From: Micromonospora aurantiaca ATCC 27029
GTDB lineage: Bacteria > Actinomycetota > Actinomycetes > Mycobacteriales > Micromonosporaceae
Length of the DNA stretch: 64,000 bases
Assembly: GCF_000145235.1 (NCBI RefSeq)
Contig: NC_014391.1
Coordinates: 5,723,501 to 5,787,500 of the forward strand
Reading direction: 5' to 3'
Shown piece after piece: positions 37,927-56,055 of the stretch (position 1 is the stretch's first letter; each line of letters opens with the position of its first letter). The notes under the pieces are model-generated. The model worked only from the letters and a program-made list of their open reading frames with translations. It did not search any database and had not been told where the DNA came from. The translations under genes and the position numbers were made by a program.

Positions 37927-38736
37927 ATGGCATCGACGCTGACCCGGCGTACCCTGCTCGGCGCCGCCGCCGGCGTGGCCGGCGCCGCGGTGGTCGGCGG
38001 CCTGGCCGCCCGGCAGCTCTCCGGCCCTCGCCCGGGACCGGCACCGGCCCTGCCGGACGCGCCGGCCGGCGACGAACGGCTCATCCGCATCGCGTCCGGC
38101 GCGCGCGGCCGCGAGGTGGACTTCTGGACGGCCGTGCCCGACGGGTACGGCGACGGCCGCGGCCTGCCCGTCTGCCTGGTGCTGCACGGCGCATCGGCCA
38201 CCCCGCGCGACTACGGCCGGTTCGGGCTGGCCCGCTTCCTCACCGACGCGGTACGCCGCGGCGCCCCACCGTTCGCGCTCGCGGGCGCCACCGGCGGGCG
38301 GCTGTCCTGGCGCGCCGCCGGTGACGACGACCCGCAGCGGATGGTGCGCGAGGAGGTGCCCACCTGGTGCGCCCGGCGCGGGTTCGACAGCAGCCGGCTG
38401 GCCGTGTGGGGCTGGTCGATGGGCGGCTTCGGCGCGTTGCTGCTCGCCGAGACGTACCCGAAGTGGCTGCGGATGACCGCGGCCTTCTCCCCCGCGGTCA
38501 GCGCCGGCGACGCGGTCTTCACCGGCGTGGAGAGGCTGCGCGGCACCCCGGTCGGGCTCTGGTGCGGGCGGCAGGACAATTTCCTGAAGGACGTGCGCGC
38601 GCTGGCCCGGGCGCTGCCCGAGGAGCCGGTACGCGCCGCCTGGGCCGACGGGCGGCACAACTTCGGCTACTGGGGCACAGTCATCCCGGACGCGTTCGCG
38701 CTGATCGGCGCCGCGCTCAACCCGCCCCGGACGTGA
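37927..38736 (+). CDS. Exported alpha/beta hydrolase (esterase-like), Tat-type signal
   Basis: A 269-residue secreted hydrolase. The N-terminus [25 protein letters not shown] has the twin-arginine pattern and a hydrophobic stretch, then a Pro/Ala linker. The catalytic domain shows CLVLHGASATPRDYGRFG, the nucleophile elbow AVWGWSMGGFGALLLAETYP, and a C-terminal His in ADGRHNFGYW. This is the esterase D/mycolyltransferase-like group. Its substrate is unknown. The ATG at 37927 is the first fitting start. It follows the GGGCCC repeat. Confidence 0.85.
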   Translation: MASTLTRRTLLGAAAGVAGAAVVGGLAARQLSGPRPGPAPALPDAPAGDERLIRIASGARGREVDFWTAVPDGYGDGRGLPVCLVLHGASATPRDYGRFGLARFLTDAVRRGAPPFALAGATGGRLSWRAAGDDDPQRMVREEVPTWCARRGFDSSRLAVWGWSMGGFGALLLAETYPKWLRMTAAFSPAVSAGDAVFTGVERLRGTPVGLWCGRQDNFLKDVRALARALPEEPVRAAWADGRHNFGYWGTVIPDAFALIGAALNPPRT

Positions 38737-38755
38737 ACCGGCACCGCACGTGAAC

Positions 38756-38782
38756 CGCCCCCGGCCGCGCGGGCCGGGGGCG
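38756..38782. terminator. Bidirectional terminator
   Basis: CGCCCCCGGCC and GGCCGGGGGCG form a perfect 11-bp stem with a 5-nt loop, between the convergent hydrolase and 3-hydroxybutyryl-CoA dehydrogenase genes. Confidence 0.85.
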
Positions 38783-38793
38783 GGACGGGTTGG

Positions 38794-39642
38794 TCAGTAC
38801 GAGTAGAAGCCCTGGCCGGTCTTGCGGCCCAGGTCGCCGGCGGTCGCCATGCGCTGGAGCAGCTCCGGCGGGAAGAACTTCTCGTCGGCGGTGTCGGTGT
38901 AGATGTTGCGGGTGGCGTTGAGCAGCACGTCCACGCCGGTCAGGTCGACCGTCGCGAGCGGGCCCATGGCGTGGCCGAAGCCCAGCTTGCAGGCGGTGTC
39001 CAGGTCCTCGGCGGAGATCACGCCGGACTCGACGAGCTTGACCGCCTCCATCGCCAGCGCGCAGATCAGCCGGGTGGTGACGAAGCCGGCGATGTCCCGG
39101 TTGACCACCACGACGGTCTTGCCGATCTCCTCGGCGAACGACTTGACCGTCTCCATGGTCGCGTCGCTGGTCTTGTAGCCGCGTACCAACTCGCAGAGCT
39201 TCATCATCGGCACCGGCGAGAAGAAGTGCGTGCCGACGACCGACTCCGGGCGCTCGGTGGCGGTGGCGATCTGGGTCACCGGGATGGCCGACGTGTTGGT
39301 GGCGAGCACCGCGTCCGCCTTGCAGATCTTGTCGAGCGCGCGGAACACCTCGTGCTTGATCTCGATCTTCTCGAAGACCGCCTCGACCACGATGTCCGCG
39401 TCGGCGGCGGCCTCCAGGTCGGTGGTCGGGGTGATCCGGCCCAGCGTCGCCTCGACGTCGGACGCCTCGATCTTGCCCTTCTCGGCGAACTTCGTCAGCG
39501 ACTTCCGGATGCCGTCCACACCGCGCTTCGTGGCCGCGTCGTCGATGTCGCGCAGCGTCACCTGCCAGCCCGCCTGCGCCGCCACCTGGGCGATGCCCGA
39601 GCCCATCAGCCCGGCACCGACGACCGCGAGTCGACCCGCCAT
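38794..39642 (-). CDS. 3-hydroxybutyryl-CoA dehydrogenase
   Basis: A 282-residue single-domain enzyme interconverting acetoacetyl-CoA and 3-hydroxybutyryl-CoA. Seen: RLAVVGAGLMGSGIAQVAAQAG (NAD loop), DIVVEAVFEKIEIKHEVF, LATNTSAIPVTQIA, the catalytic His in GTHFFSPVPMMKLCELV, and the C-terminal MGPLATVDLTGVDV with LGRKTGQGFYSY. ATG at 39642 has GGGAGAAG upstream; the open frame extends nine codons further. It is the second such enzyme in the window. It probably supplies the Ccr branch or poly-3-hydroxybutyrate/beta-oxidation. Confidence 0.93.
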   Translation of the reverse strand: MAGRLAVVGAGLMGSGIAQVAAQAGWQVTLRDIDDAATKRGVDGIRKSLTKFAEKGKIEASDVEATLGRITPTTDLEAAADADIVVEAVFEKIEIKHEVFRALDKICKADAVLATNTSAIPVTQIATATERPESVVGTHFFSPVPMMKLCELVRGYKTSDATMETVKSFAEEIGKTVVVVNRDIAGFVTTRLICALAMEAVKLVESGVISAEDLDTACKLGFGHAMGPLATVDLTGVDVLLNATRNIYTDTADEKFFPPELLQRMATAGDLGRKTGQGFYSY

Positions 39643-39711
39643 CTGCTTCTCCCTCGCCGTGTTCTGCAACGTCTGGGAGAACCCTACTTAACGAGGGATA
39701 AGCCCCGGCCG

Positions 39712-41133
39712 TCAGATGGCCAGGTCCGGCTCCTCCGGCGCGGTGCCGCGCTCCACCTCGACGCCGAGCGCCCGCAGGTCGGCCACGAAGTCCGGATAGC
39801 CCCTGTCGACGTGGTGCACGTGCGAGACCTCGGTGAGGCCGTCGGCGCAGAGCCCGGCGATGATCAGGCCGGCACCGGCCCGGATGTCGGTGGCGCGTAC
39901 CGGGGCGCCGGACAGCCGCTCCCGGCCGCACACCAGGGCGTGGTGACCGTCGGTACGGATCTCCGCGCCCAGCCGCATCATCTCGTTGGCGAACATGAAC
40001 CGGCCGTCGAAGATGTTCTCGGTGATCAGCGAGCCGCCCTCGCTGACCGCCGCCAGCCCGATCGCCATCGGCAGCAGGTCGGTGGCGAAGCCCGGGTAGG
40101 GCAGCGTGACCACGTCGACCGCCCTCGGGCGGTCGTCCATGCGTACCCGGAAGGCGTCGCCTCGCGTCTCCACCAGGCCGCCGGCCGCGACCAGCTTGTC
40201 CAGCGCGACCTCCAGGTACGCCGGGTCCAGGCCGGTCACCGTCACGTCGCCGCGGGTCATCGCGGCGGCGAACGCCCACGTGCCGGCCACGATCCGGTCC
40301 CCCACCGTGGCGTGCCGGACCGGCCGCAGCTCGGGTACGCCGACGATGTGCAGCGTCGACGTGCCGGCCCCCTCGATCCGCGCGCCCATCCGGTTCAGCA
40401 TCGTGCAGATGTCGACGATCTCCGGCTCCCGGGCCGCGTTGTCGATCGTCGTGGCGCCCCGGGCCAGCACCGCCGCCATGACCAGGTTCTCGGTCGCGCC
40501 CACGCTCGGGAAGTCCAGCACGATGTCGGCGCCGTGCAGCCCGCCCGGCGCCTCGGCGATGACGAAGCCGTGCTCACCGGAGATCTCCGCGCCCATCCGG
40601 GCCAGCCCGGCGATGTGCATGTCCAGACCGCGCGAGCCGATGGCGTCGCCGCCCGGGTGGGCCACCCGGACGTACCCCCGGCGGGCCAGCAGCGGGCCGA
40701 GTACGCAGATCGACGCGCGCAGCCGCCGCACCAGGTCGTAGTCGGCTTCCGCGCCGGGCCGCTCCGGCACGTCGATGAGCACCGACCGGGACCGCTCCAC
40801 ACCGCCGTGCGCCACCATCGGGTCGACCGGGTCGTCCGGCCCGAACCGTACGCCGCAACCGAGCCGCCGCAGCACCTCGCCCATGATCGCGATGTCGGTG
40901 ATCCGGGGCACGTTGGTGATCAGGCTGCGGCCGGGCGCGAGCAGCGCGGCGGCCATCAGCTTCAGCGCGGAGTTCTTCGCACCCACCACGTGCACGGTGC
41001 CGGCGAGCCGGGCGTCACCGCGTACCCGGATGACGTCGACGTCGTTGACCGCCGGATCTCCCGCGTCCCCCGGCCCCACCGGGCTCGGCCGGGCCGGGAT
41101 GGTCAGGTCCGGTATCCGTAGGCTGTGCGTCAT
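39712..41133 (-). CDS. murA: UDP-N-acetylglucosamine 1-carboxyvinyltransferase, Asp-type
   Basis: First committed step of peptidoglycan synthesis: transfer of enolpyruvate to UDP-GlcNAc. 473 residues from ATG 41133. Seen: [86 protein letters not shown] and [14 protein letters not shown]-like segments. The catalytic-loop Cys of most MurA proteins is replaced by Asp (D163 in [15 protein letters not shown]), as in mycobacteria, which predicts intrinsic fosfomycin resistance. The family core begins near residue 33, so the first 30 residues are extra; GTG at 41079 is an alternative start. Its start codon overlaps that of the divergent adenosyltransferase. Confidence 0.93.
41119..41124 (+). promoter_or_regulatory. 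Candidate -10 box of a leaderless cobalamin adenosyltransferase transcript
   Basis: TAGGCT is followed by 7 nt and then the ATG of the adenosyltransferase, with no ribosome site. The promoter lies within the murA coding region. Confidence 0.45.
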
Positions 41134-41704
41134 GGCCGTCCACCTCACGCGCATCTACACCAAGGCCGGCGACGCCGGCATGACCAGGCTGAGCAACAAC
41201 GAGCAGGTGCCGAAGACCGATCCGCGCATCGCCGCGTACGCGGACGTGGACGAGTGCAACGCCTCGATCGGCGTCGCGCTCGCCCTGGGGCAGCTCCCGG
41301 ACGAGCTGCGGGCCGTGCTGGAATCCGTGCAGAACGACATGTTCGACGTCGGCGCGGACCTGGCGACGCCTGTGGAGCCGGATCCGAAGTACCCGCCGCT
41401 GCGGGTGACCGAGGAGTACGTCGAGCGCCTCGAGGGCTGGTGCGACGAGTACAACGCGCGCCTGAGCAAGCTCGACTCCTTCATCCTCCCCGGCGGCACC
41501 GCGGGCGCGGCACTGCTGCACGTGGCACGGACGACCGCCCGGCGCGCCGAGCGTGCGGCATGGGCGCTGGTCACACACGACCCCGATCGGACCAGTCCCC
41601 TCCCGGCAAAGTATCTCAACCGGCTCTCCGATTTGCTCTTTATCCTGTCAAGAACGGCAAATCCGGACGGCGACGTGCTATGGGTGCCGGGCGGGAAGCG
41701 CTGA
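41132..41704 (+). CDS. Cob(I)alamin adenosyltransferase, PduO type
   Basis: A 190-residue ATP:cob(I)alamin adenosyltransferase making the cofactor needed by Ecm and other mutases. Seen: [16 protein letters not shown] with the ATP loop, [60 protein letters not shown] (the helix with the ATP-binding Arg residues) and [17 protein letters not shown]. Length and motifs match the PduO class. ATG at 41132 starts exactly where family members start. The 3' end has fewer G/C third positions than its neighbours. The next gene overlaps it by 25 nt. Confidence 0.94.
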
Positions 41705-42096
41705 CCATCGGCGGCCTCCATCACGTGGAGGTGTGGGTACCCGACCTGGCAGCGGCCAGTCGTTCCTGGGGCTGGCTTCTCGGCGAACTGGGCTGGACGC
41801 CGTACCAGGACTGGCCCGCCGGCCGCTCCTGGCGGCTCGGCGCCACATACGTCGTGCTGGAGGAGTCACCCGCGCTCACCGGCCGCACCCACGACAGGTG
41901 CGCGCCCGGCCTGAACCACCTGGCCTTCCACGCCGGCCCGCCGGCCGCCGTCGAACGCCTGGTCGCTGCCGCTGGAGAGTACGGCTGGACGCTGCTGTTC
42001 CCGGACCGGCACCCACACGCGGGTGGCCCGGACAGCTACGCCGCCTACCTCACCGACGGGCAGGGGTACGAGGTCGAGTTGGTCGCGGAGACGTGA
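41680..42096 (+). CDS. VOC-superfamily (glyoxalase-like) protein
   Basis: A 138-residue metalloenzyme-fold protein: IGGLHHVEVWVPDLAAASRSWGWLLGELGW, CAPGLNHLAFHAGPP and DSYAAYLTDGQGYEVELVA show the paired betaalphabetabetabeta units with the usual His, His and Glu metal ligands. Substrate unknown; members include dioxygenases, glyoxalases and antibiotic-binding proteins. The ATG at 41680 lies inside the end of the adenosyltransferase gene, which suggests coupled translation. A terminator follows directly. Confidence 0.85.
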   Translation: MGAGREALTIGGLHHVEVWVPDLAAASRSWGWLLGELGWTPYQDWPAGRSWRLGATYVVLEESPALTGRTHDRCAPGLNHLAFHAGPPAAVERLVAAAGEYGWTLLFPDRHPHAGGPDSYAAYLTDGQGYEVELVAET

Positions 42097-42134
42097 GAAG
42101 GCCGGCACCCCGTTGGTTCGGGGTGCCGGCCTTC
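42097..42134. terminator. Terminator between convergent genes
   Basis: GAAGGCCGGCACCCC and its perfect 15-bp complement flank an 8-nt loop, immediately after the VOC stop codon, with CAGCTTGGTCTTGCTT following. It serves the VOC gene and probably also the minus-strand gene at 42157. Confidence 0.9.
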
Positions 42135-42156
42135 AGCTTGGTCTTGCTTGTTGGTC

Positions 42157-42732
42157 TTAGCTGTTCCAGTGCTGGGCGACGAGGTCGGCGGCCTGCTGCT
42201 CCCACTGGGCGTAGTGGTCCGGGTAGGCCGACACCTGGACGGTCTGGGCGGCCTTGGTCAGGGGCATGTCCTGCCAGCCGTCGACCTGCTTCAGACCCTT
42301 CAGGAACGCCGTCGTGGAGTACTCCGGGTCGGTGATCTGCTCCACCGTTCCCCAACCACTGGACGGGCGCTGCTGGAACAGGCCCTGCGAGTCGTGGTCG
42401 TTACGGTCACCGAGGTGGCCGAGGTTCTCCAGCTTCGACTCCTGCAGCGCCGTGGCGATGGAGACGACGGCGGCACGCTCGTCCATGCCGGCCTTCTTGG
42501 TGGCGGCGATGATGGCCTTGACGTTGGCGGTCTGCTCGTCGTTCAGGTCGATGCGCGACTGGTTGCCCTGCACGCCGTGCGGGATCAGCTTGTCACCCTG
42601 CACGCTCACACTGACCGGCTTCGCCACGTGCGTGGTCTCCGCCGCGTGAGCGGCCACCGGGCCGGCGAACACGCCACCGGTGAAAGCCAGACCAGCAACA
42701 CCCAGAATGCTCTTACGCAGAATCGTGTTCAT
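42157..42732 (-). CDS. Secreted transglycosylase-like protein
   Basis: A 191-residue exported protein. Signal peptide: MNTILRKSILGVAGLAFTGGVFAGPVAAHAA, cut near residue 31. The mature region has NDEQTANVKAIIAATKKAGMDERAAVVSIATALQESKLENLGHLGD, then DSQGLFQQRPSSGWGTVEQ and ASYPDHYAQWEQQAADLV-like segments. The Glu in ATALQES and the GLFQQRP motif resemble lysozyme-fold muralytic enzymes of the Rpf/transglycosylase type common in Micromonospora. Activity is inferred. ATG at 42732 has GGAG just upstream. The long repeat-filled gap upstream may hold its control region. Confidence 0.8.
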   Translation of the reverse strand: MNTILRKSILGVAGLAFTGGVFAGPVAAHAAETTHVAKPVSVSVQGDKLIPHGVQGNQSRIDLNDEQTANVKAIIAATKKAGMDERAAVVSIATALQESKLENLGHLGDRNDHDSQGLFQQRPSSGWGTVEQITDPEYSTTAFLKGLKQVDGWQDMPLTKAAQTVQVSAYPDHYAQWEQQAADLVAQHWNS

Positions 42733-42849
42733 GGGGGGCTCCATTCGGGGGTAGACACACCCCGCAGGGGGACGGGGATGCGTGGGCACCGTCAGGCGCT
42801 CAAGAAAGTCTTCGGGGGATCCGGCTGCTCGCGAGGGCAGGGGGGCCTC

Positions 42850-42880
42850 GTCGCGGCGCCGGAAGCATGTTCAACGACCC
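42850..42880. repeat. Direct repeat upstream of the secreted protein gene, unit 1
   Basis: GTCGCGGCGCCGGAAGCATG continues into TTCAACGACC. The same pattern returns 86 bp away at 42936-42966 with five differences in 30 bases. Confidence 0.7.
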
Positions 42881-42935
42881 ACCACCCGCCACCATTCCCG
42901 GAGGCGCCACACGCCACCGGAGAGCAGGCGCGGGG

Positions 42936-42966
42936 GTCACGTCGTCGGAACCGTGTTCAACGACCA
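42936..42966. repeat. Direct repeat upstream of the secreted protein gene, unit 2
   Basis: Second copy of the 31-bp repeat (GTCACGTCGTCGGAACCGTG, then TTCAACGACC). On the transcribed strand both read GGTCGTTGAACA, then a CTTCCG- or GTTCCG-type stretch. Confidence 0.7.
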
Positions 42967-43162
42967 GCCGGCCAGGATGATTCCCAGGCTTGCGGACACC
43001 GCCCCGCTCGCAGGGCGCGCCGCCGACGCTCGGTCGTTCACCCGGTTACAACGCCACCCACCCGCCCGCGATTCCACCCTCAGAGTGCCACCCACCACCC
43101 CCGAACCAGACACCCCCGCCCAGGTCAGCACGGATCGCACCACACGCACCCGCCCCCGCGCC

Positions 43163-43223
43163 GTCGATCATGAAGTTGACGCCGACAAACCGGACACCAA
43201 ACACCGCTAACTTCATGATCGAC
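43163..43223. repeat. Palindromic repeat, GTCGATCATGAAGTTG type (copy 2)
   Basis: A 61-bp element with 19-bp inverted ends (GTCGATCATGAAGTTGACG against 43205-43223, one mismatch-like difference). Length and core match copy 1 at 26502-26562. Confidence 0.88.
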
Positions 43224-43266
43224 CCGAACCAGGCAGGGCTGACCCGGAGCGGGCTGACCCAGGGCA

Positions 43267-43327
43267 GGGCTGGCCCGAGCGGGGCTGGCCCGAGCGGGGC
43301 TGGCCCGAGCGGGGCTGGCTCGGTGCG
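43267..43327. repeat. 15-bp tandem repeat array
   Basis: Three exact copies of GGGCTGGCCCGAGCG and a fourth degenerate one, preceded by two weaker GGGCTGACCC units at about 43238-43262. It is the kind of array that varies in copy number. Confidence 0.85.
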
Positions 43328-43366
43328 GGGGCGCGACGCCAATCGGGTCGCCCGCACGACCACCCG

Positions 43367-43439
43367 CGCGATCTTGCAGTTCGAGCCCTCTGGGCGTCTC
43401 ATTTGCGAGGTTTGCCGGGCACCAAAGTGCAAGATCGCG
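43367..43439. repeat. Palindromic repeat, GATCTTGCA type (copy 2)
   Basis: A 73-bp element with CGCGATCTTGCA and TGCAAGATCGCG perfect 12-bp ends. The right end extends AAAGTGCAAGATC like copy 1 at 4319-4388. Confidence 0.83.
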
Positions 43440-43461
43440 GGAGGTGCCGGGAAGGGTGCGG

Positions 43462-43532
43462 CGATCTTGGAGTTGTGGTGCCTCACTAACGGCGCGAACC
43501 GGGCATTTCCCGGCGCCACAACTCCAAGATCG
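43462..43532. repeat. Palindromic repeat, GATCTTGGAGTTGTGGC type (copy 2)
   Basis: A 71-bp element with CGATCTTGGAGTTGTGGTG(CC) and its 21-bp complement at 43512-43532, one mismatch. It lies 22 bp after the GATCTTGCA element, the same pairing as at 4.3-4.8 kb. Confidence 0.85.
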
Positions 43533-43594
43533 GCGTCAGCGGCGGCGACCCGGCACGACCCCCGTGACCCGTTGACGGGGTGTTGGGGTGAGGG

Positions 43595-44050
43595 TCAGGC
43601 GGCGGGCCAGTCCTGGGAGGCCAGACGCGGCGAGGCCGCCCCGGGTGGGGCGGCCTCGAGCCAGGACAGGAATCCGGTGACCGTGGATCGCGCCATGGCG
43701 ATCTCGATCGGCGCGTGGTGGCTGGTACAGCGCAGGATCACCCACTCGGCGGGCATCGACATGCGCTCCTGCCCCTCGGGCAGCCGGCGGCGCTCGACCG
43801 CCAGCCCCTTGCGGGAGAGCACCCGCTTGGGGCGCAGCGCGAAGCTGAACATGCGGTACCAGCGGAGTTCGTCGCCCACGAAGCGACCGAACCCGGGTGA
43901 CCAGCCACGACCGTCGAGGATCGTGTTGACCCGGACGCTCAGCCGGATGATGCCACCGCTACGCGTGAACAGGGCCCGCCGGATGAAGAGGATCAGAAGC
44001 GCGACGACGACGATCGCGACGCCGATTCCGATCCCTTCGACGATCTCCAT
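43595..44050 (-). CDS. DUF2550 family membrane-anchored protein
   Basis: A 151-residue protein with one N-terminal membrane helix (GIGIGVAIVVVALLILFIRRALF) and a cytoplasmic domain with RGWSPGFGRFVGDELRWYRMFSFALRPKRVLSR, followed by ERRRLPEGQE and CTSHHAPIEIAM. It matches DUF2550, a family usually found just after atpC in actinobacteria. It is 12 bp downstream of atpC here, so they are likely cotranscribed. Function unknown. Confidence 0.88.
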   Translation of the reverse strand: MEIVEGIGIGVAIVVVALLILFIRRALFTRSGGIIRLSVRVNTILDGRGWSPGFGRFVGDELRWYRMFSFALRPKRVLSRKGLAVERRRLPEGQERMSMPAEWVILRCTSHHAPIEIAMARSTVTGFLSWLEAAPPGAASPRLASQDWPAA

Positions 44051-44062
44051 CGGCGGGTCGGC

Positions 44063-44341
44063 TCAGCGGGCCGGGGTGGCGGGGGTTGCGCTCTCGGCGA
44101 GGACTGTGACGCCCTCACCGGTCACCGACAGGAAGCCGCCGGCCACGTCGTACGCGATCTGCTGGCCACCGGCCTGCTTGATGCGTACCTGGCTGGGTTC
44201 GGCGAGCTGGCCGAGCAGCGGTGCGTGCCCAGGCAGCACACCGAGCTCACCCTCGGTCGTCCGGGCGACGACCATCTCGGCCTCGCCGGTCCAGACCTTC
44301 TCCTCGACGGCTACGAGCTCGACGTGAAGCTGCTGTGCCAC
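44063..44341 (-). CDS. atpC: F1Fo ATP synthase epsilon subunit
   Basis: A 92-residue central-stalk subunit with only the beta-sandwich domain: QLHVELVAVEEKVWTGEAEMVVARTTEGELGVLPGHAPLLGQL, then YDVAGGFLSVTGEGVTVLAESA. The C-terminal helical domain of many bacteria is missing, so ADP-dependent inhibition by that arm would be absent. GTG at 44341 has AAGGAG 6 nt upstream. It is separated from atpD by an LCP gene, and a promoter-like pair lies just upstream. Confidence 0.93.
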   Translation of the reverse strand: MAQQLHVELVAVEEKVWTGEAEMVVARTTEGELGVLPGHAPLLGQLAEPSQVRIKQAGGQQIAYDVAGGFLSVTGEGVTVLAESATPATPAR

Positions 44342-44374
44342 GCTGTCTCCTTGCTGCGGCGGCGGATTGCCGAA

Positions 44375-44404
44375 AGTCTAGTCGCGACCCCGCAGCCCAC
44401 CCAA
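44375..44404 (-). promoter_or_regulatory. Candidate promoter for atpC
   Basis: Read on the minus strand: TTGGGT, an 18-bp spacer, then TAGACT, 33 bp upstream of the atpC start codon. It would let atpC be transcribed apart from the rest of the atp genes. Confidence 0.4.
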
Positions 44405-44450
44405 CGCGGGTGGTGAGAGCCGGACCACCACGGTCCCGCACCCGCTCAGG

Positions 44451-45602
44451 CTACTTGGTCTTCTGCTTGAAGTCGGGGTGCTCCAGCAGGAATGCGTCGA
44501 GCTGTTCGGTACGCAGGGCGGTGAAGAAGTCCTCCGCCGGTTCGAGCAGTTGCTCACCCCGGTAGTTGCTGCCGGTCCCGATCGGGCCGCCCGGCAGCTT
44601 GATCGTCTCGATCGCCTCGGGCCGGATGTCCTTCAGGGCCAGCCCGAAGTCGACCACGCTGTTGCCGCGGCCGTTGAACACCAGCGACTTCCCGGCGGCG
44701 CGCAGCACCCGGTCCAGCTTGACCGGGTTGGCCACCACGTCGGCGCTGAACGCCTGGCTCACCATCGCCTTGACGAACTGCTGCTGGTGCCGCTGCCGGC
44801 CGTAGTCGGCGTCCGGCACGCCGTTCTTCGGGTAGCGCTGCCGGACGTAGTCCAGCGCCTGCCAGCCCTTGAGGTGGGCGTTGCCCTTCTTGTACACGGC
44901 CTGCGGCCCGAGGTAGCCACCACCGCCGGGCTTGAGCTGGCGCGGCGTGCCGTCCGGCTGGAGGTGCTCCGAGCGCACCTCCCGCTCGATGTACATGTCG
45001 ACGCCGCCCATGGCGTCGACGATCTTCTTGAACCCGCTGAAGTTGATGATCGCACCGGCGTCGAAGCGCTTGATGCCGGTGACCTCCTGCACGGTGTTGG
45101 CGAGCAGCTCGAAGCCCTGCGGGGTGCTGGGGTTCTGCCCCGGCACGTTGCTGCCGTGCGACATGGCCGCGTTGAGCCGGTCGTTGGCGCCCGAGTAGTC
45201 GGCCTTGGGGAACTCCGGGATGTCTACCCGCAGGTCACGCGGCAGCGAGAAGAGGTAGCCGCGGTCCATGGTGGCGGGCACGTGCAGGACCATGATCGAG
45301 TCGGCGAGCGGGCGGGCGGTCGCGGTCCGGGGGTCCACGCCGACGAGCAGGATGTTGAGCGGGCCCTTGATGTCGCTCTTCTTCTCGTTGGCGCCGGCGG
45401 CCTGGTCACCGAAGAGGTCGGCCTTGCCCACCGATCCCTCGTAGCGGGCGACGAGGGCGCGCGAGCCGATCAGCACGGAGCCGCTGAGCACCACCATGAC
45501 GATGCCCAGGATCGTGCAGACGCGGGCCCACCGGGGCACGCCGCGCCACATGGACCGCTTCCCGCGATCCGCGCCGCCCTTACCGCCCACGAGCATCTCC
45601 AA
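44451..45602 (-). CDS. LytR-CpsA-Psr (LCP) family cell-wall ligase
   Basis: A 383-residue membrane-anchored enzyme that attaches polymers such as teichoic or arabinogalactan-like glycans to peptidoglycan. A short cytoplasmic N-terminus, one helix (VCTILGIVMVVLSGSVLIGSRAL), then the LCP domain: ILLVGVDPRTATARPLADSIMVLHV, SLPRDLRVDIPE, NDRLNAAMSHG, GGVDMYIEREV, and YVRQRYPKNGVPDADYGRQRHQQQFV. The conserved Asp and Arg residues are present. It sits between atpD and atpC on the same strand, which is not the standard atp order. No LytR_C domain is present. The start shown is the first in-frame ATG; ATG at 45551 (MWRGVPRW) is an alternative. Confidence 0.92.
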   Translation of the reverse strand: MEMLVGGKGGADRGKRSMWRGVPRWARVCTILGIVMVVLSGSVLIGSRALVARYEGSVGKADLFGDQAAGANEKKSDIKGPLNILLVGVDPRTATARPLADSIMVLHVPATMDRGYLFSLPRDLRVDIPEFPKADYSGANDRLNAAMSHGSNVPGQNPSTPQGFELLANTVQEVTGIKRFDAGAIINFSGFKKIVDAMGGVDMYIEREVRSEHLQPDGTPRQLKPGGGGYLGPQAVYKKGNAHLKGWQALDYVRQRYPKNGVPDADYGRQRHQQQFVKAMVSQAFSADVVANPVKLDRVLRAAGKSLVFNGRGNSVVDFGLALKDIRPEAIETIKLPGGPIGTGSNYRGEQLLEPAEDFFTALRTEQLDAFLLEHPDFKQKTK

Positions 45603-45760
45603 TCGTCGCGCCCACGGGTAGGAAGACGGGCGCGGGGGTCCGTTTGGTTGCAGAGATCAACGGCCGGATGTGAAGTCGTGTCAGGAACGGTACCGCGCGA
45701 TCCGGCGAACTGCTTGCCGGAGAACCGGGCATCTGGTAGTGCAGTGCCCGGAAAAGGCGA

Positions 45761-45791
45761 AGGCCGCCCCGGCTTTCACCGGGACGGCCCT
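45761..45791 (-). terminator. Terminator after atpD
   Basis: AGGCCGCCCCGG pairs with CCGGGACGGCCT across a 6-nt loop, with one C-A mismatch. It lies 20 bp past the atpD stop, before the LCP gene, and would end the main atp transcript. Confidence 0.7.
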
Positions 45792-45810
45792 CGTGGGTGT
45801 GAGCGGGCTC

Positions 45811-48185
<2,375 letters not shown>

Positions 48186-48189
48186 CGGA

Positions 48190-49842
48190 TCAGCTCTCGG
48201 CCGGGCGGTCGGTGGTGCCGTCGCGGAAGCGGGTCACCGTCTCGCGGGTCTCCTCGCCCTCCAGCGGCTTGGCCGGCGCGTCGTTGACCCGGACCTCGTC
48301 CTCCTTGCCCAGGAAGACCTGCTTGAACTCACTGATCGCGGAGTCGAGCGAGGAGATGATCTCGTCGTCCCACTTGTTGTCGGCGATTCCGGCCAGGACG
48401 CCCTCGTGCTTGTGGCGGAGGTACTGGAGGAACTCGGACTCGAAGCGGCGGACCTCGCCGACCGGGACGTCGTCCAGCTTGCCCTCGGTGCCGGCCCAGA
48501 CGGAGACGACCTGCTCCTGCACCGGGTACGGCGAGTAGTTCGGCTGCTTGAGCAGCTCGACCAGGCGGGAACCCCGGTCCAGCTGGGCGCGGGAGGCCCG
48601 GTCCAGGTCGGAGGCGAAGGCGGCGAACGCCTCCAGCTCGCGGTACTGGGCCAGGTTCAGCCGCAGCGAGCCGGCGACCTTCTTCATCGGCTTCACCTGC
48701 GCGGCGCCACCGACCCGGGAGACCGAGGTGCCGACGTTGATGGCCGGCCGGACGCCCTGGTTGAACAGGTCGGTCTCGAGGAAGATCTGGCCGTCGGTGA
48801 TGGAGATGACGTTGGTCGGGATGAACGCCGAGATGTCGTTCGCCTTGGTCTCGATGATCGGCAGACCGGTCATCGAGCCGCCGCCCAGCTCGTCGGAGAG
48901 CTTGGCGCAGCGCTCCAGCAGACGCGAGTGCAGGTAGAAGACGTCACCCGGGTAGGCCTCGCGGCCCGGCGGGCGGCGCAGCAGCAGCGACACGGCGCGG
49001 TACGCCTCGGCCTGCTTGCTCAGGTCGTCGAAGACGATCAGGACGTGCTTGCCGCCGTACATCCAGTGCTGCCCGATGGACGAGCCGGTGTAGGGGGCGA
49101 GGTACTTGAAGCCGGCCGGGTCGGAGGCCGGGGAGGCGACGATGGTGGTGTACTCCATCGCGCCCGCCTCCTCCAGCGTCCCCTTGATGGAGGCGATGGT
49201 GGAGGCCTTCTGGCCGATCGCGACGTAGATGCAGCGGACCTGCTTCTTCGGGTCGCCGGAGCGCCAGTTCTCGCGCTGGTTGAGGATGGTGTCCAGGGCG
49301 ACAGTGGTCTTGCCGGTCTTGCGGTCACCGATGATCAGCTGGCGCTGGCCACGGCCGATCGGGGTCATCGCGTCGACGGCCTTGATGCCCGTCTGCAGCG
49401 GCTCGTCGACCGACTTGCGGGACATCACGTTCGGGGCCTGGAGCTCCAGCTCGCGGAAGCCCTCGTTGGCGATGTCGCCGAGGCCGTCGATCGGCTCGCC
49501 GAGCGCGTTCACCACGCGGCCGAGGAACGCGTCGCCGACGGGCACGGAGAGCACCCGGCCGGTGCGCTTGACGCGCTGACCCTCTTCGATCCCGCCGAAG
49601 TCACCGAGGACGACGACACCGATCTCCCGGACGTCGAGGTTCAGCGCCACGCCGAGCGTGCCGTCCTCGAACTCCAGGAGCTCGTTGGTCATGGTCGAGG
49701 GGAGACCCTCGACGTGGGCGATGCCGTCACCGGCGTCGGCGACGGTGCCGACCTCCTCGCGGGAGACGTCGGCCGTGTAGGAGGAGACGTAGCGCTCCAG
49801 GGCGCCGCGGATCTCCTCCGTCGAGATGGTCAGCTCGGCCAT
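48190..49842 (-). CDS. atpA: F1Fo ATP synthase alpha subunit
   Basis: Non-catalytic nucleotide-binding F1 subunit of 550 residues. Walker [21 protein letters not shown], the region [45 protein letters not shown], and [27 protein letters not shown] with the arginine finger. An extra 35-residue C-terminal tail ([20 protein letters not shown] and after) resembles the mycobacterial alpha extension known to lower ATP hydrolysis. ATG 49842 has AAGGAAGCAGAGG upstream. Confidence 0.97.
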
Positions 49843-49927
49843 CCTCTGCTTCCTTAAGTATCAGGGGCCCGGGATACCTAGTACCGACCGGTCCGATGGC
49901 GTCGAATCAGGGCTGCTAAGACGCTGG

Positions 49928-50749
49928 TCAGCGCTTCGCGAGCGCGTTGCGGGTCTCGTTGAGGCGGCGCAGGACGGTCCCGTCGTACAGGTCGGATCCG
50001 ACCCGCACGCGCACTCCGCCGAGCACGTCGGGGTCGACCGTCTGCTTGACGGAGACCTCCCGACCGTACATCTGGGAGAGGCGGGCGCCGAGGCGTCGCT
50101 CCTCCTCGTCGTTCAGCGGAGCCGCCACGGTCACGTACGCGACCTGACGGTCCCGCCGGTCGGCGGCCAGCTCGACCAGCCGGGTGAGCGCACCGGTGAA
50201 GGAGCGTCCCCCGAAGCCGGCGAGCGCGGCCTCGACGAGGCGGACGGTGACCGGCCGGGCCTTGCCGGCCAGCAGCTGCTGGGCCAGTTCGGCCCGCCGC
50301 TGCACCGGGGCCATCGGGTCGGAGAGCGCGTTGGACAGCTCGCCGGAACCGGAGACGACCTTCCCGAAGCGGAACAGCTCGTCCTCGACCTCGCCCAGAT
50401 CGCCGGTCGAGTCGGCGCTCGCGAGGAGCGCCTCCACGCCGATCCGCTCGACGCCGTCGAGCAGCTCCGACGGGGCCGACCAGCGACCGGAGACCAGCGT
50501 GGTGAGCAGGTCGAGCGCGTCCGCGCCGACCTTCCCGCCCAGGATCCCGGTGAGCAGAGCCGCGCGGTCCTCACCCGAGCGCGCCGGGTCGGCCAGCGCC
50601 CGGCGCAGCCGCGGCTCGCGCCGCAGCAGGTCGGCGACGGAGAGGATGTCGTCGGCGGTGGAGGCCACCGCCGACGGCTCCGCGCCGCGGGCGTACGCGT
50701 CGAGGCGCTCGGCCCCGGCGGAGTACGACTCCCGGCTGGCGGCCTGCAT
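49928..50749 (-). CDS. atpH: F1Fo ATP synthase delta subunit
   Basis: Peripheral-stalk subunit of 273 residues, with an N-terminal helical domain (SRESYSAGAERLDAYARG, SVADLLRREPRLRRALADPARSGEDRAALL) and C-terminal SLKQTVDPDVLGGVRVRVGSDLYDGTVLRRL-type segment. It is longer than the roughly 180-residue E. coli protein because of a duplicated helical part, as in many actinobacteria. ATG at 50749 overlaps the atpF stop codon (TGATG). Confidence 0.95.
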   Translation of the reverse strand: MQAASRESYSAGAERLDAYARGAEPSAVASTADDILSVADLLRREPRLRRALADPARSGEDRAALLTGILGGKVGADALDLLTTLVSGRWSAPSELLDGVERIGVEALLASADSTGDLGEVEDELFRFGKVVSGSGELSNALSDPMAPVQRRAELAQQLLAGKARPVTVRLVEAALAGFGGRSFTGALTRLVELAADRRDRQVAYVTVAAPLNDEEERRLGARLSQMYGREVSVKQTVDPDVLGGVRVRVGSDLYDGTVLRRLNETRNALAKR

Positions 50750-51288
50750 CAGCGGGCCCCCGTGCTCTCGAGACCGCTCAGGAACCGGTCGACGGTGCCC
50801 TTGCGACGCGCCTCGTCGGCCAGCGACTCACCGACGATCTTGCTGGCCAGGTCCACCGCGATGGTGCCGACCTCGGTGCGCAGCTCGCGCACGATGGTGG
50901 CCCGCTCCGCGGCGAGCTGCTCCTTGCCGGCGGCGATGATCCGGTCGGACTCCTCGCGCGCCTTGGCGAGGATGTCCTGGCGGATGCCCTCGGCGTCGGC
51001 CCGGGCGTCGTCCCGGATCTTGGCGGCGTCGGTACGCGCCTCGGCGAGCTGGGCCCGGTACTGCTCGAGCAGCTGGTTCGCCTCGGCCTGCGCGGCCTCG
51101 GCGCGCTTGATGCCGCCCTCGATCGCGTCGACCCGGGCCTGGAACGTCTGCTCCATGCGCGGGAAGACGAACTTCATCAGCACGAAGCAGAGCACGATGA
51201 AGGCGATCCCACCGACCACGATCTCCTGCCAGACAGGGATGATCGGGTTGTGGGTCGTCTCACCACCCTCAGCGGCGAGGAAGTACAT
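50749..51288 (-). CDS. atpF: F1Fo ATP synthase b subunit
   Basis: Peripheral-stalk subunit of 179 residues: an N-terminal membrane helix (EIVVGGIAFIVLCFVLMKFVF), a long charged helix (ARVDAIEGGIKRAEAAQAEANQLLEQYRAQLAEARTDAAKIRDD), and a C-terminal delta-binding portion. It is a separate b subunit, without the b-delta fusion found in mycobacteria. Confidence 0.95.
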   Translation of the reverse strand: MYFLAAEGGETTHNPIIPVWQEIVVGGIAFIVLCFVLMKFVFPRMEQTFQARVDAIEGGIKRAEAAQAEANQLLEQYRAQLAEARTDAAKIRDDARADAEGIRQDILAKAREESDRIIAAGKEQLAAERATIVRELRTEVGTIAVDLASKIVGESLADEARRKGTVDRFLSGLESTGAR

Positions 51289-51315
51289 CGGAAACCTCCC
51301 GGTCTCAGGGCCGAA

Positions 51316-51582
<267 letters not shown>

Positions 51583-51619
51583 TCACGCGGGACGACAACG
51601 GTTGGTGCGAAAGATCGGA

Positions 51620-52417
51620 TCAGTGCTCGTCGGCGAGGGCGCCCTGCACGTAGCTGGCGGTCAGCACCGTGAAGACGTACGCCTGCAGACAGATCACCAG
51701 GAACTCGAGGAAGGTCAGCGCCACAGTCATCGTCCAGGACAGCACCGAGACCGGTGCCAGCCAGGCGTTGGCGCTGATCATGGCGAACCCGCCGAGCGTG
51801 AAGACCAGCAGGAGCATGTGGCCGGCGAACATGTTCGCGAAGAGACGGACGGCCAGCGAGAACGGCCGGACGATGAAGGTCGAGAACAGCTCGATCGGGA
51901 TCAGCAGCGGCAGGATGAACCAGGGCGCCGGCGGGACCAGAGCGTTCTTGAAGTACTTCACGAAGCCGTGGTGCCGGATGCCGACGTAGTTGAACATCAC
52001 GTAGCTGATCACGGCGAGGAAGGCCGGGAAGGCGATGTGCGAGTTCGGCGAGATCTGGAAGAACGGCACGATCGCGAAGAAGTTCGTCAGCAGGATGAAG
52101 CAGAAGAGCGTGGTGAAGTACGGCGCGAACCGCACTCCCGCGTGACCGATCATGTCCACGGCGATGTTGTTGCGCACGAAGCCGTAGATCGACTCGGCCA
52201 GCCACTGCTTCTTGGTGGGGACCAGCTGCGGCTTCCGGTACGTGGCCAGGAAGAAGATGATCAGCACGCCGACGGCGATCCACACCATCGCCGTGATCTT
52301 GGTGAACCAGTACGAGTTCTCCGCACCCCAGGGCAGGATGCTGGGCAGGTAGAAGTCCCCCACGCTCGGTGGGAATTCCGCCTGGCCCTGAGCCAGGACG
52401 TTCGCCTGTCCGAACAC
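51620..52417 (-). CDS. atpB: F1Fo ATP synthase a subunit
   Basis: A 265-residue proton-channel subunit. Helices: ITAMVWIAVGVLIIFFLA, FTTLFCFILLTNFFAIVPFF, IPIELFSTFIVRPFSLAVRLFANMFAGHMLLLVFT with the essential Arg of helix 4 in SLAVRLFANM, and a C-terminal LEFLVICLQAYVFTVLTASYVQGA. GTG at 52417 was chosen because AGGAAGG lies 7 nt upstream; an open frame extends far beyond it. It follows a small atpI/Z-like gene. Confidence 0.95.
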   Translation of the reverse strand: MFGQANVLAQGQAEFPPSVGDFYLPSILPWGAENSYWFTKITAMVWIAVGVLIIFFLATYRKPQLVPTKKQWLAESIYGFVRNNIAVDMIGHAGVRFAPYFTTLFCFILLTNFFAIVPFFQISPNSHIAFPAFLAVISYVMFNYVGIRHHGFVKYFKNALVPPAPWFILPLLIPIELFSTFIVRPFSLAVRLFANMFAGHMLLLVFTLGGFAMISANAWLAPVSVLSWTMTVALTFLEFLVICLQAYVFTVLTASYVQGALADEH

Positions 52418-52428
52418 CGCGTCCCTTC

Positions 52429-52665
52429 CTAAGTAGGCGTGCCAAGTCGGCGGACGACCAGGATGATCCCCCCGGCCATGCCGAGCACGACCCCGATACC
52501 GGTGGCGATGCCGCCGGTGTCGAGCCAACGGTCGACCAGCCAGCCGATGAAACCCCAGACGAGCATGCCCCCGATGAGGTATGAGAGCGCGGTCCAACCC
52601 TGACCGGCACCGGACGGAACGTCGCCCGAGCCGCCAGTGTTGGGGGGTTTCTGGTCACCGGCCAT
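52429..52665 (-). CDS. Small two-helix membrane protein (AtpZ/AtpI-like)
   Basis: A 78-residue protein with a Gly/Pro/Ser N-terminus and two helices (WTALSYLIGGMLVWGFIGWLVDRWLD and GIATGIGVVLGMAGGIILVVRRLG). It fits the small AtpZ/AtpI-like proteins that precede atpB and act in c-ring assembly or Mg2+ import. ATG at 52665 has no obvious ribosome site. It is 11 bp upstream of atpB. Confidence 0.82.
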   Translation of the reverse strand: MAGDQKPPNTGGSGDVPSGAGQGWTALSYLIGGMLVWGFIGWLVDRWLDTGGIATGIGVVLGMAGGIILVVRRLGTPT

Positions 52666-52839
52666 GACGGGGCGAACGATATCAGTCGAGCAGAAGAGGT
52701 TGTGCCTCACCCCCCGCACAACCTGGTTGTGTGGGACACGGGCGGGCGAAGTCGTCTGGAGGAACGGTACTCCTCCCCCGCCACTGAGAGAATGACCGAT
52801 CGCGGACAGAACCACGCGTCGCCCGAAGGGTGGGACGGC

Positions 52840-53271
52840 TCAGCGCAGCATCCGTCGGGCATGGACGGTCGTGAGCCACCAGACGTGCACGCCGGTCCAG
52901 ACCACCACGCCCGCGGCGATGCCGAAACAGAACGGGATCAGTCCCGGCCAGCCGGTCGAGGCCACCAGCACCATCACCCCGCCGAGCGCGGTGATCTTGG
53001 CGACGTAGAGGCCCAGCCCGAACGGCAGCACGAGCTGCGGATCCTTCGAGTCCGCCCAGGCAAGCACCACTGTGGTGAGCGTGTAGCTCGCAGCCGTGAC
53101 GGCCACCCCGGCCGCCGCGCCGAGCGCGCCGTCCGCGCCGCGCCACACCCCGCCGACCACCGCGGCGACAGCGGCCAGCACCGCCACCGCGGCCAGCAGC
53201 ACCGGCAGATGGCGCAGTCGCCAGCCGCGGTCCGCCGTCGCCTCCGCCGCGCGCGTCCCGGGCTCAGCCAC
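52840..53271 (-). CDS. AtpI-like membrane protein
   Basis: A 143-residue protein with four membrane helices: [65 protein letters not shown] and [23 protein letters not shown]. Position and topology fit the actinobacterial AtpI-like proteins preceding the atp genes. GTG at 53271 overlaps the glyA 3' end by 8 nt. Function is inferred. Confidence 0.8.
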
Positions 53272-54553
53272 GGGGGTACGCCGGGAACTCGGTGACCAGC
53301 TCGGTCACGTCGGCGGCGATCCGGGTCAGCTCGTCGCCGCCCCCGGGGGACTCCGGATCGGTCCGCACCGCCCGACCGATCAACGTGGCGATCCGGCGCA
53401 TCTCCCCTTCCCGCATGCCCTGGGTGGTGACGCTCGGCGAGCCCACCCGGATGCCGGAGGCCACCGCCGGCGGCTGCGGGTCGTACGGGACGGCGTTCTT
53501 GTTCAGCGTGATGCCGGCGGCGTCGCAGCGGGCCTCGGCCTGGGCGCCGGTCACACCGGTCTCGCGCAGGTCGAGCAGGGCCAGGTGGGTGTCGGTGCCG
53601 CCGGAGACCGCCGGCAGTCCCTCCGCGGCCAGCCCGTCGGCGAGCGCGCGGGCGTTGGTGACCACCTGGGCGGCGTACGTGCGGAACTCGGGCTGCGCGG
53701 CCTCGCGCAGCGCGACCGCCTTGGCGGCGACGGCGTGCATCAGCGGGCCGCCCTGGGTGAACGGGAAGACCGCCTTGTCGATCCGGGCCGCCAGCGGCTC
53801 CCGGCAGAGGATCATGCCGCCGCGCGGGCCGCGCAGCACCTTGTGGGTGGTCGCGGTGACCACGTCGGCGTACGGCACGGGCGACGGGATCGCGCCGCCG
53901 GCCACCAGGCCGATGAAGTGCGCGGCGTCCACCATCAGGTACGCGTCGACCTCGTCGGCGATCTCCCGGAAGCGGGCGAAGTCGATCAGCCGCGGGTACG
54001 CCGTCGCGCCGCAGATGATCATCTTCGGCCGGTGCGCGCGGGCCAGGTCGCGTACCTCGTCGTAGTCGATCGTCCCGGTGTCCCGCCGGACGGTGTAGCC
54101 GACCGGGTGGAACCACTTGCCGGAGAAGTTCACCCGGCTGCCGTGGGTCAGGTGCCCGCCGTGCGGCAGGTCCATCGCCAGCACCGTGTCACCCGGCTGC
54201 ACCAGGGCGGCGTACGCGGCCAGGTTGGCGCTCGCCCCGGAGTGCGGCTGGACGTTCGCGTGCTCGGCGCCGAACAGCTCCTTCGCCCGGGAGATCGCCA
54301 GTTCCTCGGCCCGGTCCACCTCGGCGCAGCCGCCGTAGTAGCGCCGCCCCGGGTAGCCCTCGGCGTACTTGTTGGTGAGCGTGGAGCCCAGCGCGGCCAG
54401 CACCGCGGGCGAGGTGAGGTTCTCGCTGGCGATCAGTTGCAGGCCGCCGCGCAGCCGGTCCAGCTCACCCAGCACCACCTCGGCGATCTCCGGGTCGACG
54501 GTACTGAGCTGCTGAAAGTCCGGCCCCCAGAAGGTGTCCCTCGCGTTCTCCAC
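53264..54553 (-). CDS. glyA: Serine hydroxymethyltransferase
   Basis: PLP enzyme that makes glycine and methylene-tetrahydrofolate from serine. 429 residues. Seen: [70 protein letters not shown], the PLP Lys in [16 protein letters not shown], and [14 protein letters not shown]. The sequence [15 protein letters not shown] is diagnostic. GTG at 54553 was chosen because TAGACT lies 8 nt upstream with no ribosome site, so the message may be leaderless. An AtpI-like gene overlaps its end, and it is divergent from an SDR gene. Confidence 0.96.
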
Positions 54554-54561
54554 AGCGAAGG

Positions 54562-54567
54562 AGTCTA
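54562..54567 (-). promoter_or_regulatory. Candidate -10 box of a leaderless glyA transcript
   Basis: TAGACT on the minus strand, 8 nt before the glyA GTG. Confidence 0.4.
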
Positions 54568-54588
54568 CGGAGCCGCACACTGGATGCC

Positions 54589-56055
54589 GTGAGATGCCTC
54601 GTCACCGGTGCGACCGGCTACATCGGCGGACGCCTCGCGCCCCGGCTGCTGGCCGAGGGGCACACCGTACGCTGCCTGGCCCGCACCGCCGGACGGCTGC
54701 GGGACGTGCCGTGGGCGGCCGAGGCGGAGGTCGTCGAGGGCGACCTCCGCCGGCCGGAGACGCTGCCGGCCGTGTTCGCAGGCGTGGAGGTGGCGTACTA
54801 CCTGGTCCACTCGCTGGGCCAGCGCGGGTTCGAGGCGGCCGACCGGGAGGCCGCGACGAACTTCGCCGAGGCGGCGCGCGCCGCGGGCGTACGCCGGATC
54901 GTGTATCTCGGCGGGCCGGAGCCGGCGGAGCGCGACGGCCTGCCCTCGGCGCACCTGCGCTCCCGGACAGAGGTCGCGCGGATCCTGCTGGACAGCGGCG
55001 TGCCCACTGCGGTGCTGCGCGCCGCCGTGATCATCGGATCCGGTTCGGCCTCGTTCGAGATGCTGCGCCACCTGACCGAGCGGCTCCCGGCGATGGTCAC
55101 CCCGCGCTGGGTGCGCAACCGGATCCAGCCGATCGCGGTCCGGGACGTGCTGCGCTACCTGGCCGGCTGCGCGCACCTGCCGGCCGACGTCAACCGGGCC
55201 TTCGACATCGGCGGCCCGGACGTGCTGACGTTCTCCGAGATGATGCAGCGGTACGCCCGGGTGGCCGGGCTGCGGCGCCGGGTCATCCTGCCGGTACGTC
55301 CGCTCACCCCGTCGCTCTCCTCGCACTGGGTCGGCCTGATCACGCCGGTGCCGAACGCGATCGCCCGGCCGCTCGTGGAGAGCCTGGTGCACGAGGCGGT
55401 GGCGCACGAGCACGACATCGCCCGGTACGTGCCGGACCCGCCGGACGGGCTGATCGGCTTCGACCAGGCGGTCGCGCTGGCGCTGACCAAGGTGCGGGAC
55501 GCGGAGGTGGAGACGCGCTGGTCGAACGCGAGCGGGCCGGACGCGCCCGCCGAGCCGCTGCCGTCGGATCCGCACTGGTCCGGCGGCACCGCGTACACCG
55601 ATCTGCGGGAGCGGACGGTGGACGCGCCACCGGCGGCGTTGTGGCGGGTCATCGAGGGCGTCGGCGGCGAGAACGGCTGGTACTCGTTCCCGCTCGCCTG
55701 GTCGGTGCGCGGCTGGATGGACCGCCTGATCGGCGGCGTCGGGCTGCGCCGGGGCCGGCGCGACCCGCACCGGCTCCAGGTCGGCGAGGCGCTGGACTTC
55801 TGGCGGGTCGAGGAGATCGTCCCGGGTGAGCTGCTGCGGCTGCGCGCCGAGATGCGGCTGCCCGGGCGGGCCTGGCTGGAGATGCGCGCCGAGCCGGACG
55901 GGGACGGCCGCAGCAGGTACGTCCAGCGGGCCGTGTTCCTCCCGCGCGGCCTGCCCGGCCACCTCTACTGGGCCTCGGTGGCCCCCTTCCACGCCGTCGT
56001 CTTCGGCGGCATGGCCCGCAACATCGCCCGGGGCGCCGAACACCCCGCCGGTTAG
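54589..56055 (+). CDS. NAD(P)-binding SDR-type protein with DUF2867 domain
   Basis: A 488-residue protein. An atypical short-chain dehydrogenase fold comes first: [24 protein letters not shown] (the GxxGxxG loop), [22 protein letters not shown] and [11 protein letters not shown]. The C-terminal 150 residues match DUF2867 ([48 protein letters not shown]). The YxxxK catalytic pair is not evident, so it may be a sensor or nucleotide-sugar-type protein. GTG at 54589 is 35 bp from the divergent glyA start. Its stop codon overlaps that of the convergent SDR gene by 4 bases. Confidence 0.88.

Follow-up and report, generated by a model that had tools for sequence, protein, structure and literature searches.

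ATP synthase is the textbook example of a single operon tuned to a fixed subunit stoichiometry. In Micromonospora aurantiaca ATCC 27029, a gene of the LCP family stands between atpD and atpC, the genes for the beta and epsilon subunits of F1, and the locus raises the question of whether a wall-polymer enzyme has been placed inside an energy operon, as the original prediction had it, or whether the atpD/atpC junction separates units of transcription. The window, meaning the whole 64,000-nucleotide stretch that was analysed, was compared with the equivalent loci of relatives. The reading that we favour from this comparison of sequences, and regard as reasonably probable, is that the junction is a unit boundary and that the LCP gene lies inside it under its own, probably ECF sigma-E-like, control.

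Organization of the atp region

Profile matches for atpD, atpC and the intervening LCP gene confirmed the predicted gene order, and all features concerned are on the minus strand (Table 1). Upstream of atpF are atpB and an atpI-like ORF that scores just below cut-off, while the ORF tried there for atpE gave no match. The DUF2550 gene follows atpC after 12 bp, is found beside it in 98 of 99 loci and is probably co-transcribed with it. An Rfam search returned no match within positions 38000–56000 of the window. Between beta and epsilon lie a gene, a hairpin resembling a terminator and a box resembling a promoter, so the window departs from the standard single atp operon (cTU), in which epsilon adjoins beta in one unit.

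Table 1. Features of the atp region discussed in the text, in window coordinates
Feature	Position	Strand	Remarks
atpF	50749-51288	-	
atpH	49928-50749	-	
atpA	48190-49842	-	
atpG	47256-48185	-	
atpD, F1 beta	45811-47259	-	TIGR01039 793.9 bits; final gene of the predicted first atp unit
Hairpin, putative intrinsic terminator after atpD	45759-45792	-	15 pairs, short U-rich tail GCCTTTTCC
Putative ECF sigma-E-type promoter of LCP gene	45624-45651	-	GCAAC-N18-CGTCT
LCP-family gene	44451-45602	-	PF03816 107.6 bits (cut-off 24.6)
Putative principal-sigma promoter of atpC	44375-44411	-	ACCCGCGTTGGG ... TAGACT
atpC, F1 epsilon, 92 aa	44063-44341	-	PF02823 93.3 bits
DUF2550 membrane protein gene	43595-44050	-	PF10739 150.6 bits
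murA, peptidoglycan precursor gene	39712-41154	-	TIGR01072 488.4 bits; downstream of atpC-DUF2550

The atpC product has no C-terminal helical domain, PF02823 being its only match. A short epsilon was also seen in the family loci examined (one locus with a broken frame was set aside) and in several other families of the class, whatever the operon layout. A link between loss of this domain and decoupling of epsilon was considered from a hint at the level of the order, where strong hairpins occur in families f1, f5 and f13, all with short epsilon. It was rejected on the class sample: nine loci with short epsilon (81–94 aa, counted from the match start) have atpD–atpC gaps of −4 to 11 bp and seven of these are without a notable hairpin, and long epsilon often goes with strong hairpins.

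Distribution of the atpD–LCP–atpC order

Comparing the locus across the Micromonosporaceae, as the original prediction had proposed, showed that the gene order is not peculiar to this genome. An LCP gene lies between atpD and atpC in all 22 genomes of the genus, window included, and in 17 of 40 genera in a family survey that took one locus per genus. In a further genus (g19), LCP–atpC–DUF2550 forms a block apart from atpD; four genera (g4, g11, g13 and g14) have an atpC without LCP gene and unlinked from atpD, six carry another gene in the gap, and 12 have a gap of 58–431 nt (ORFs were looked for only above 250 nt, and the single gap of that size yielded none that was kept). Counted by locus, atpC is unlinked from atpD in eight family loci of five genera, and the distance between the two is 0.3 and 2.7 Mb in two one-contig genomes among g4, g11, g13 and g14. 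The g19 block (L061, L190) shares a contig with atpD, about 9 kb away, and is in the opposite orientation. Left out were four of 121 family genomes without an atpC match, the paralog locus L159 (from the genus tables), outgroup L122 and class loci L328, L331, L334, L345 and L358, in whose stretches no atpD was detected, and G057, whose atpC frame has a stop and then a fused frame.

At 1e-60, 27 of 200 genomes of the order match the window LCP, namely the 22 of its genus (70–100% identity, window included), one other family member and four of family f13; the f13 matches are 40–41% identical, and atpD and atpC are adjacent without an LCP gene in all three f13 genomes whose atpC locus was taken. 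At 1e-45, two of 88 genomes in the class sample match, the window and another of its genus. Eighty named loci were also collected as the best 80 of 306 relatives, which is not a random sample. Among these an LCP gene is beside atpC in 68: 63 of 64 Micromonospora loci (up to 96% identical to the LCP of the window), both Plantactinospora loci, each with two genes in tandem, and one locus each from Phytohabitans, Allorhizocola (atpD not within reach) and strain KJ-029. In the same best 80 it is absent from Dactylosporangium (0/4), Actinocatenispora (0/2), Stackebrandtia (0/3), Longispora albida (0/1) and one MAG (0/1).

Two variants of the locus were seen. Tandem LCP pairs lie between atpD and atpC in L224, L264, L238 and L073 (Plantactinospora, Micromonospora sp. 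HM5-17 and g32), and also in g28. In L262, from Micromonospora sp. ATA32, transporter-like and epimerase-like genes (by eye) precede atpC–DUF2550–murA in place of atpD–LCP, reflecting either a rearrangement or an assembly break at the same junction.

Where the gap holds something else, its contents vary, which indicates that it is permissive. HIT-like proteins occur in g7, g26 and g40 (a by-eye resemblance, with no Pfam match for two and no NCBIfam match for the third), and g26 additionally has two S66 LD-carboxypeptidases (one of the two scanned). The g44 gap carries an RTX-repeat protein on the opposite strand (one scanned), with look-alikes in the named Dactylosporangium loci L221, L225 and L232, and in g23, g27 and g38 the gap appears, by eye, to encode a membrane protein in the opposite orientation (no match for the two that were scanned). 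In Dactylosporangium sp. AC04546 the gap is occupied by a transposase-like gene, IS110-like by eye. Separately, a GH3 hydrolase gene has been inserted between atpD and atpC in L124, from family f12 of the order.

Lineage of the linked LCP genes

A tree built by a quick method from AtpG, AtpD, AtpC and DUF2550 (75 rows, state by genus) requires at least six changes in the presence of the LCP gene. Unconstrained LCP trees mix linked and unlinked rows, again with at least six changes on a quick 60-row tree. On a more careful tree of 48 rows, from which 12 rows were left out by name, the linked LCPs form one clade (100/99) together with family B, a set of unlinked paralogs, and a further five unlinked copies, and family B nests among the linked rows. 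A tree forcing 24 linked rows and four unlinked copies together was not rejected (p-AU 0.116). A single insertion followed by several losses fits these results, and several insertions are also compatible with them. Because the promoter-like box of atpC described below is present in genera without the LCP gene and in genera with a relocated atpC, the split of the junction is suggested to predate the insertion.

These data bear on how much meaning attaches to the position of the LCP gene. The junction could be nothing but a passive hot spot, a terminator–promoter gap that takes whatever lands there, with the LCP gene kept for a function of its own that is unrelated to its neighbours. We put the chances of this at about even, given the diversity of the inserts (HIT-like, S66 peptidase, RTX-repeat, membrane and transposase-like proteins, and GH3 in another family) and the six or more changes in LCP presence on the one hand, and on the other the great stability of the gene in Micromonospora, with every genome of the genus and all but one of the named loci (best 80 of 306 relatives) retaining it, and the membership of the linked LCPs in one LCP lineage as opposed to random arrivals. 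Such a hot spot overlaps with our reading of the junction as a unit boundary and differs from it only in denying any selected role for the position.

Orthology with the LCP gene next to rho, a position that we assume sco5358 of Streptomyces coelicolor to occupy, was considered and rejected. In an f30 genome, the LCP beside a rho-like motif, which we presumed to mark the rho-side copy, is 27% identical to the linked LCP, and the class-sample matches at 1e-45 were confined, as noted above, to the genus of the window.

A conserved hairpin follows atpD

The terminator-like hairpin that had been predicted 3′ of atpD was recognized by eye in the aligned sequences of all 22 genomes of the genus. Covariation was assessed over 33 sequences, comprising the window and 32 sequences hand-picked for spread from 67 LCP loci of the named set (best 80 of 306 relatives) in which atpD was within reach. 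In these, 98.3% of cells are paired compared with 84.6% in shuffles, a value that none of 500 shuffles reached, and compensatory, two-sided changes occur in 12 of the 15 pairs, with far fewer when the partners are slid. Within the family, dG is below −18 in 41 of 42 LCP-bearing loci (z below −2 in 37), in 20 of 24 other loci with a gap of at least 90 nt (z below −2 in 19) and in all five whose gap is shorter than 90 nt. In the remaining families of the order the hairpin was found in three of 13 contiguous loci, all from f13, and in five of six with wider gaps (three of six by z). The class sample shows z below −2 for 16 of the 20 loci with gaps of at least 70 nt and for seven of the 23 whose gap is smaller. 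Given these strong hairpins in other families, the element is no speciality of the family to which the window belongs.

The U tract beyond the hairpin is short, with CTTTT or TTTTGTTC-like tails, so readthrough is possible. A consensus promoter and terminator scan of the window returned no promoters and a single terminator-like site, at another place and on the opposite strand; it listed neither the hairpin nor the TTGGGT-18-TAGACT pair ahead of atpC, and the case for both signals therefore rests on comparison. This lifts each of them above chance, for which a single genome would be insufficient.

A promoter-like box precedes atpC

That TTGGGT-18-TAGACT pair had been predicted from the window and was found exactly as described, at 44404–44375, and a TAGACT or TAGAAT box is present in all 22 genomes of the genus, window included (by eye on the alignment). 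The upstream regions of atpC in the genus share two conserved blocks around a variable spacer of approximately 17–18 nt; the −10 box starts 39 nt ahead of the start codon, and the −35 element matches the consensus poorly. The block ACCCGCSTTGGG-N15..20-TAGAMT has a single occurrence in the genome of 7.03 Mb, at atpC. A TANNNT −10 at a fixed distance from the start is the pattern of a principal-sigma (HrdB-type) promoter, and we infer that the box is a promoter of this kind.

Family loci with an atpD–atpC gap of at least 90 nt or a relocated atpC have the −10 box in 59 of 74 cases (3.9 expected from shuffles); the other 15 are without it in the fixed interval, several having one further upstream and some none that could be seen. 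It is present in seven of the eight loci where atpC is unlinked from atpD and in none of the five with a gap under 90 nt. Since relatives without the LCP gene also have the box, as do genomes with atpC megabases from atpD, the insertion is not the likely cause of separate epsilon expression. Elsewhere in the order the box was found in six of seven wide-gap or relocated loci and in two of 13 with a gap under 90 nt. The class sample, with box positions relative to the match start and not to a chosen start codon, has it in six of 20 wide-gap loci, four of which are among the five f30 loci, so hairpin and separate promoter need not coincide. In f30, four of five loci have a hairpin with z below −2 and four of five a TAGACT or TAGAAT box, and the gaps of 109–168 nt are too short for an LCP gene, unlike that of the window. 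Both the −10 pattern and the ECF pattern used below were fixed after the alignments had been viewed, so the expected counts understate chance.

An inverted repeat, ACCC-N5-GGGT, overlaps the −35 region at 44399–44411. It is present in most loci of the genus and its near relatives, was not seen in distant genera and could be an operator.

The LCP gene between two predicted transcription units

With a conserved hairpin behind atpD and a conserved box ahead of atpC, epsilon is probably expressed separately from the other subunits. Of the two routes to epsilon named in the original prediction, expression apart from the rest is thus the best reading, and readthrough is possible. The further claim that a wall-polymer enzyme stands inside an energy operon is not supported: the LCP gene is separated from atpD by the hairpin and from atpC by the promoter box, and it has its own promoter-like site. 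In related genera the gap holds other genes or is short, and in several of them atpC is found elsewhere. Most likely the gene is situated between two transcription units. A first unit, ending at atpD, would stop at an intrinsic-type terminator, a second, atpC–DUF2550, would start from its own HrdB-like promoter, and the LCP gene would form a third in between from an ECF sigma-E-type promoter. A junction that was already split would for that reason tolerate both insertions (LCP, HIT-like, LD-carboxypeptidase, RTX-repeat and membrane proteins) and full relocation of atpC.

The strongest facts against a unit boundary are the hairpins without a box in contiguous loci and in many wide-gap loci of the class, and the short U tail. 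The five family loci with gaps under 90 nt have the hairpin and no atpC box that could be found, so that the hairpin would not be a full stop there. The same facts could be accommodated by one long operon, atpD–LCP–atpC–DUF2550, in which the hairpin is a leaky attenuator or an mRNA-stability element that lowers epsilon relative to beta. All genes are co-directional, epsilon would have to be made by readthrough in the short-gap loci with a hairpin and no visible box (5/5 in the family, 3/3 in f13), and most wide-gap loci of the class have the hairpin without the box. We nevertheless consider a long operon unlikely, as in the family of the window the −10 box accompanies larger gaps and relocated atpC genes, and the eight family loci with an unlinked atpC, from five genera, also speak against it.

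A sigma-E-type motif upstream of the LCP gene

Turning to the predicted unit in between, CAAC-N17..19-CGTC is found upstream of the LCP gene in 18 of 21 loci of the genus (0.6 expected), a set without the window, which also carries it, and in 59 of 67 named LCP loci (2.0 expected; best 80 of 306 relatives). In other genera it is present in 11 of 37 loci (0.4 expected) and absent from 26. We read the motif as a putative ECF sigma-E-type promoter. Sigma-E target promoters of S. coelicolor have AAC and CGTC boxes with a 16–17 bp spacer, and the targets listed in the accessible text of that study include the LCP genes sco3044 and sco5358, the latter with TGCAAC-N17-CGTCTG (PMC6767563). Both of those genes combine an LCP product, a CGTCT-type sigma-E promoter and envelope-stress control, and the motif in the window is laid out alike, with a spacing at the upper end, one base longer than in sco5358. 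As far as tested, sco3044 and sco5358 belong to a different LCP lineage from the gene in the window.

A genome-wide search for the sigma-E-type motif gave 34 sites against 21 for a reversed control, a modest excess over a number that chance alone makes high, and most of 30 loci inspected lie inside ORFs, making it uninformative as a regulon test. One SigE-family ECF sigma gene of this genome (L374, TIGR02983) lies about 50 nt downstream of the same GCAAC-N18-CGTCT motif; the sigma factor that it encodes could regulate itself and also serve the LCP gene.

No conserved terminator was found after the LCP gene among the 22 genomes, as z is clearly below −2 in five and −2.0 in one more, with none in the window, so that readthrough from LCP into atpC is possible. 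An envelope-stress link, in which the ECF sigma-E-type promoter fires LCP and transcription continues into atpC–DUF2550, is on present evidence a long shot. If true, wall-polymer attachment and epsilon content (or the level of DUF2550) would rise together with the remaining ATP synthase constant, a wall-to-energy link made by gene position. Still less probable, in our judgement quite improbable, is that selection has kept LCP and epsilon paired because envelope stress should alter wall-polymer attachment as well as the composition of ATP synthase, the LCP promoter contributing to atpC by readthrough. The intact LCP–atpC–DUF2550 block away from atpD in g19 is what such coupling would predict, as is the missing terminator, but 22 of 40 genera do without the LCP–atpC pair and unrelated genes occupy the gap. 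An assembly or annotation artefact is virtually ruled out, as many independent assemblies, including several one-contig genomes, share this gene order.

The LCP protein

The ORF caller starts the LCP gene at TTG 45602 (383 aa); GTG 45590 is the likelier start, as GGAG is placed 6 nt ahead of it (by eye). The gene is one of seven LCP genes in the genome. Its product exceeds the curated cut-offs for the LCP domain (Table 1; TIGR00350 85.5 vs 62.3 bits). TagV entries are its closest solved structures by sequence, and the stretches holding the conserved Asp and Arg residues align with TagV. The protein has the domain and these residues in common with the TagV, TagU and LytR transferases (PDB 6uf3, 3nxh), yet it falls far beneath the equivalog cut-offs of the TagU and LytR models (66.3 vs 441 and 58 vs 450 bits, respectively). 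All 26 linked rows share residues D101, R122, D123, R254, R256, D266, R269 and Q273; all of these except Q273 are Asp and Arg residues that we take to belong to the polyprenyl-phosphate pocket, and for this reason the enzyme is probably active. A hydrophobic stretch at approximately residues 27–49 was recognized by eye in the translation, and the product is predicted to be a membrane-anchored LCP transferase. Its most likely role is to attach a phosphate-linked glycopolymer to peptidoglycan, at levels that would be raised under envelope stress.

Relation to known systems

ATP-synthase genes split into several units (iTUs) are known, and 78.6% of Actinobacteria are reported to have the standard arrangement (PMC5709465). 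As in iTUs, the genes in the window and its relatives would be distributed over several units throughout a lineage; the splits listed in the accessible text of that study include epsilon–beta plus the rest, or F1 plus b-c-a, and none has epsilon alone cut off with a wall gene in between (PMC5709465). In S. coelicolor, HrdB ChIP-seq has epsilon (SCO5374) and delta, beside F0 genes, reported as HrdB-controlled (PMC6344877). Principal-sigma control would be common to that atpC and the one described here, and the accessible part of the S. coelicolor report maps no start at atpC (PMC6344877). A search of open-licence papers turned up no description of any gene, LCP or otherwise, inserted between atpD and atpC in Micromonosporaceae. 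Split atp units and HrdB control of the Streptomyces epsilon are thus known, and the gene between atpD and atpC is new as far as searched.

A large actinomycete family has repeatedly parted epsilon from beta, by other genes in the gap or by an atpC elsewhere on the chromosome. Its members provide natural replicates in which to ask how the dosage of epsilon is matched when it is not co-transcribed, and whether the break in an operon, by terminator and promoter, precedes gene insertion. The comparison also corrects the tempting view of the wall enzyme as a functional part of an energy operon.

Two observations concern the surroundings of the atp genes. Short direct repeats, GGGCTGGCCCGAGCG, lie at 43230–43340 in a poorly coding stretch between the DUF2550 gene and murA (by eye). 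Upstream of the atp genes, a transglycosylase-transpeptidase (penicillin-binding protein) gene is present at 57593–59701, so that with murA downstream there are wall genes on both sides of the ATP-synthase region.
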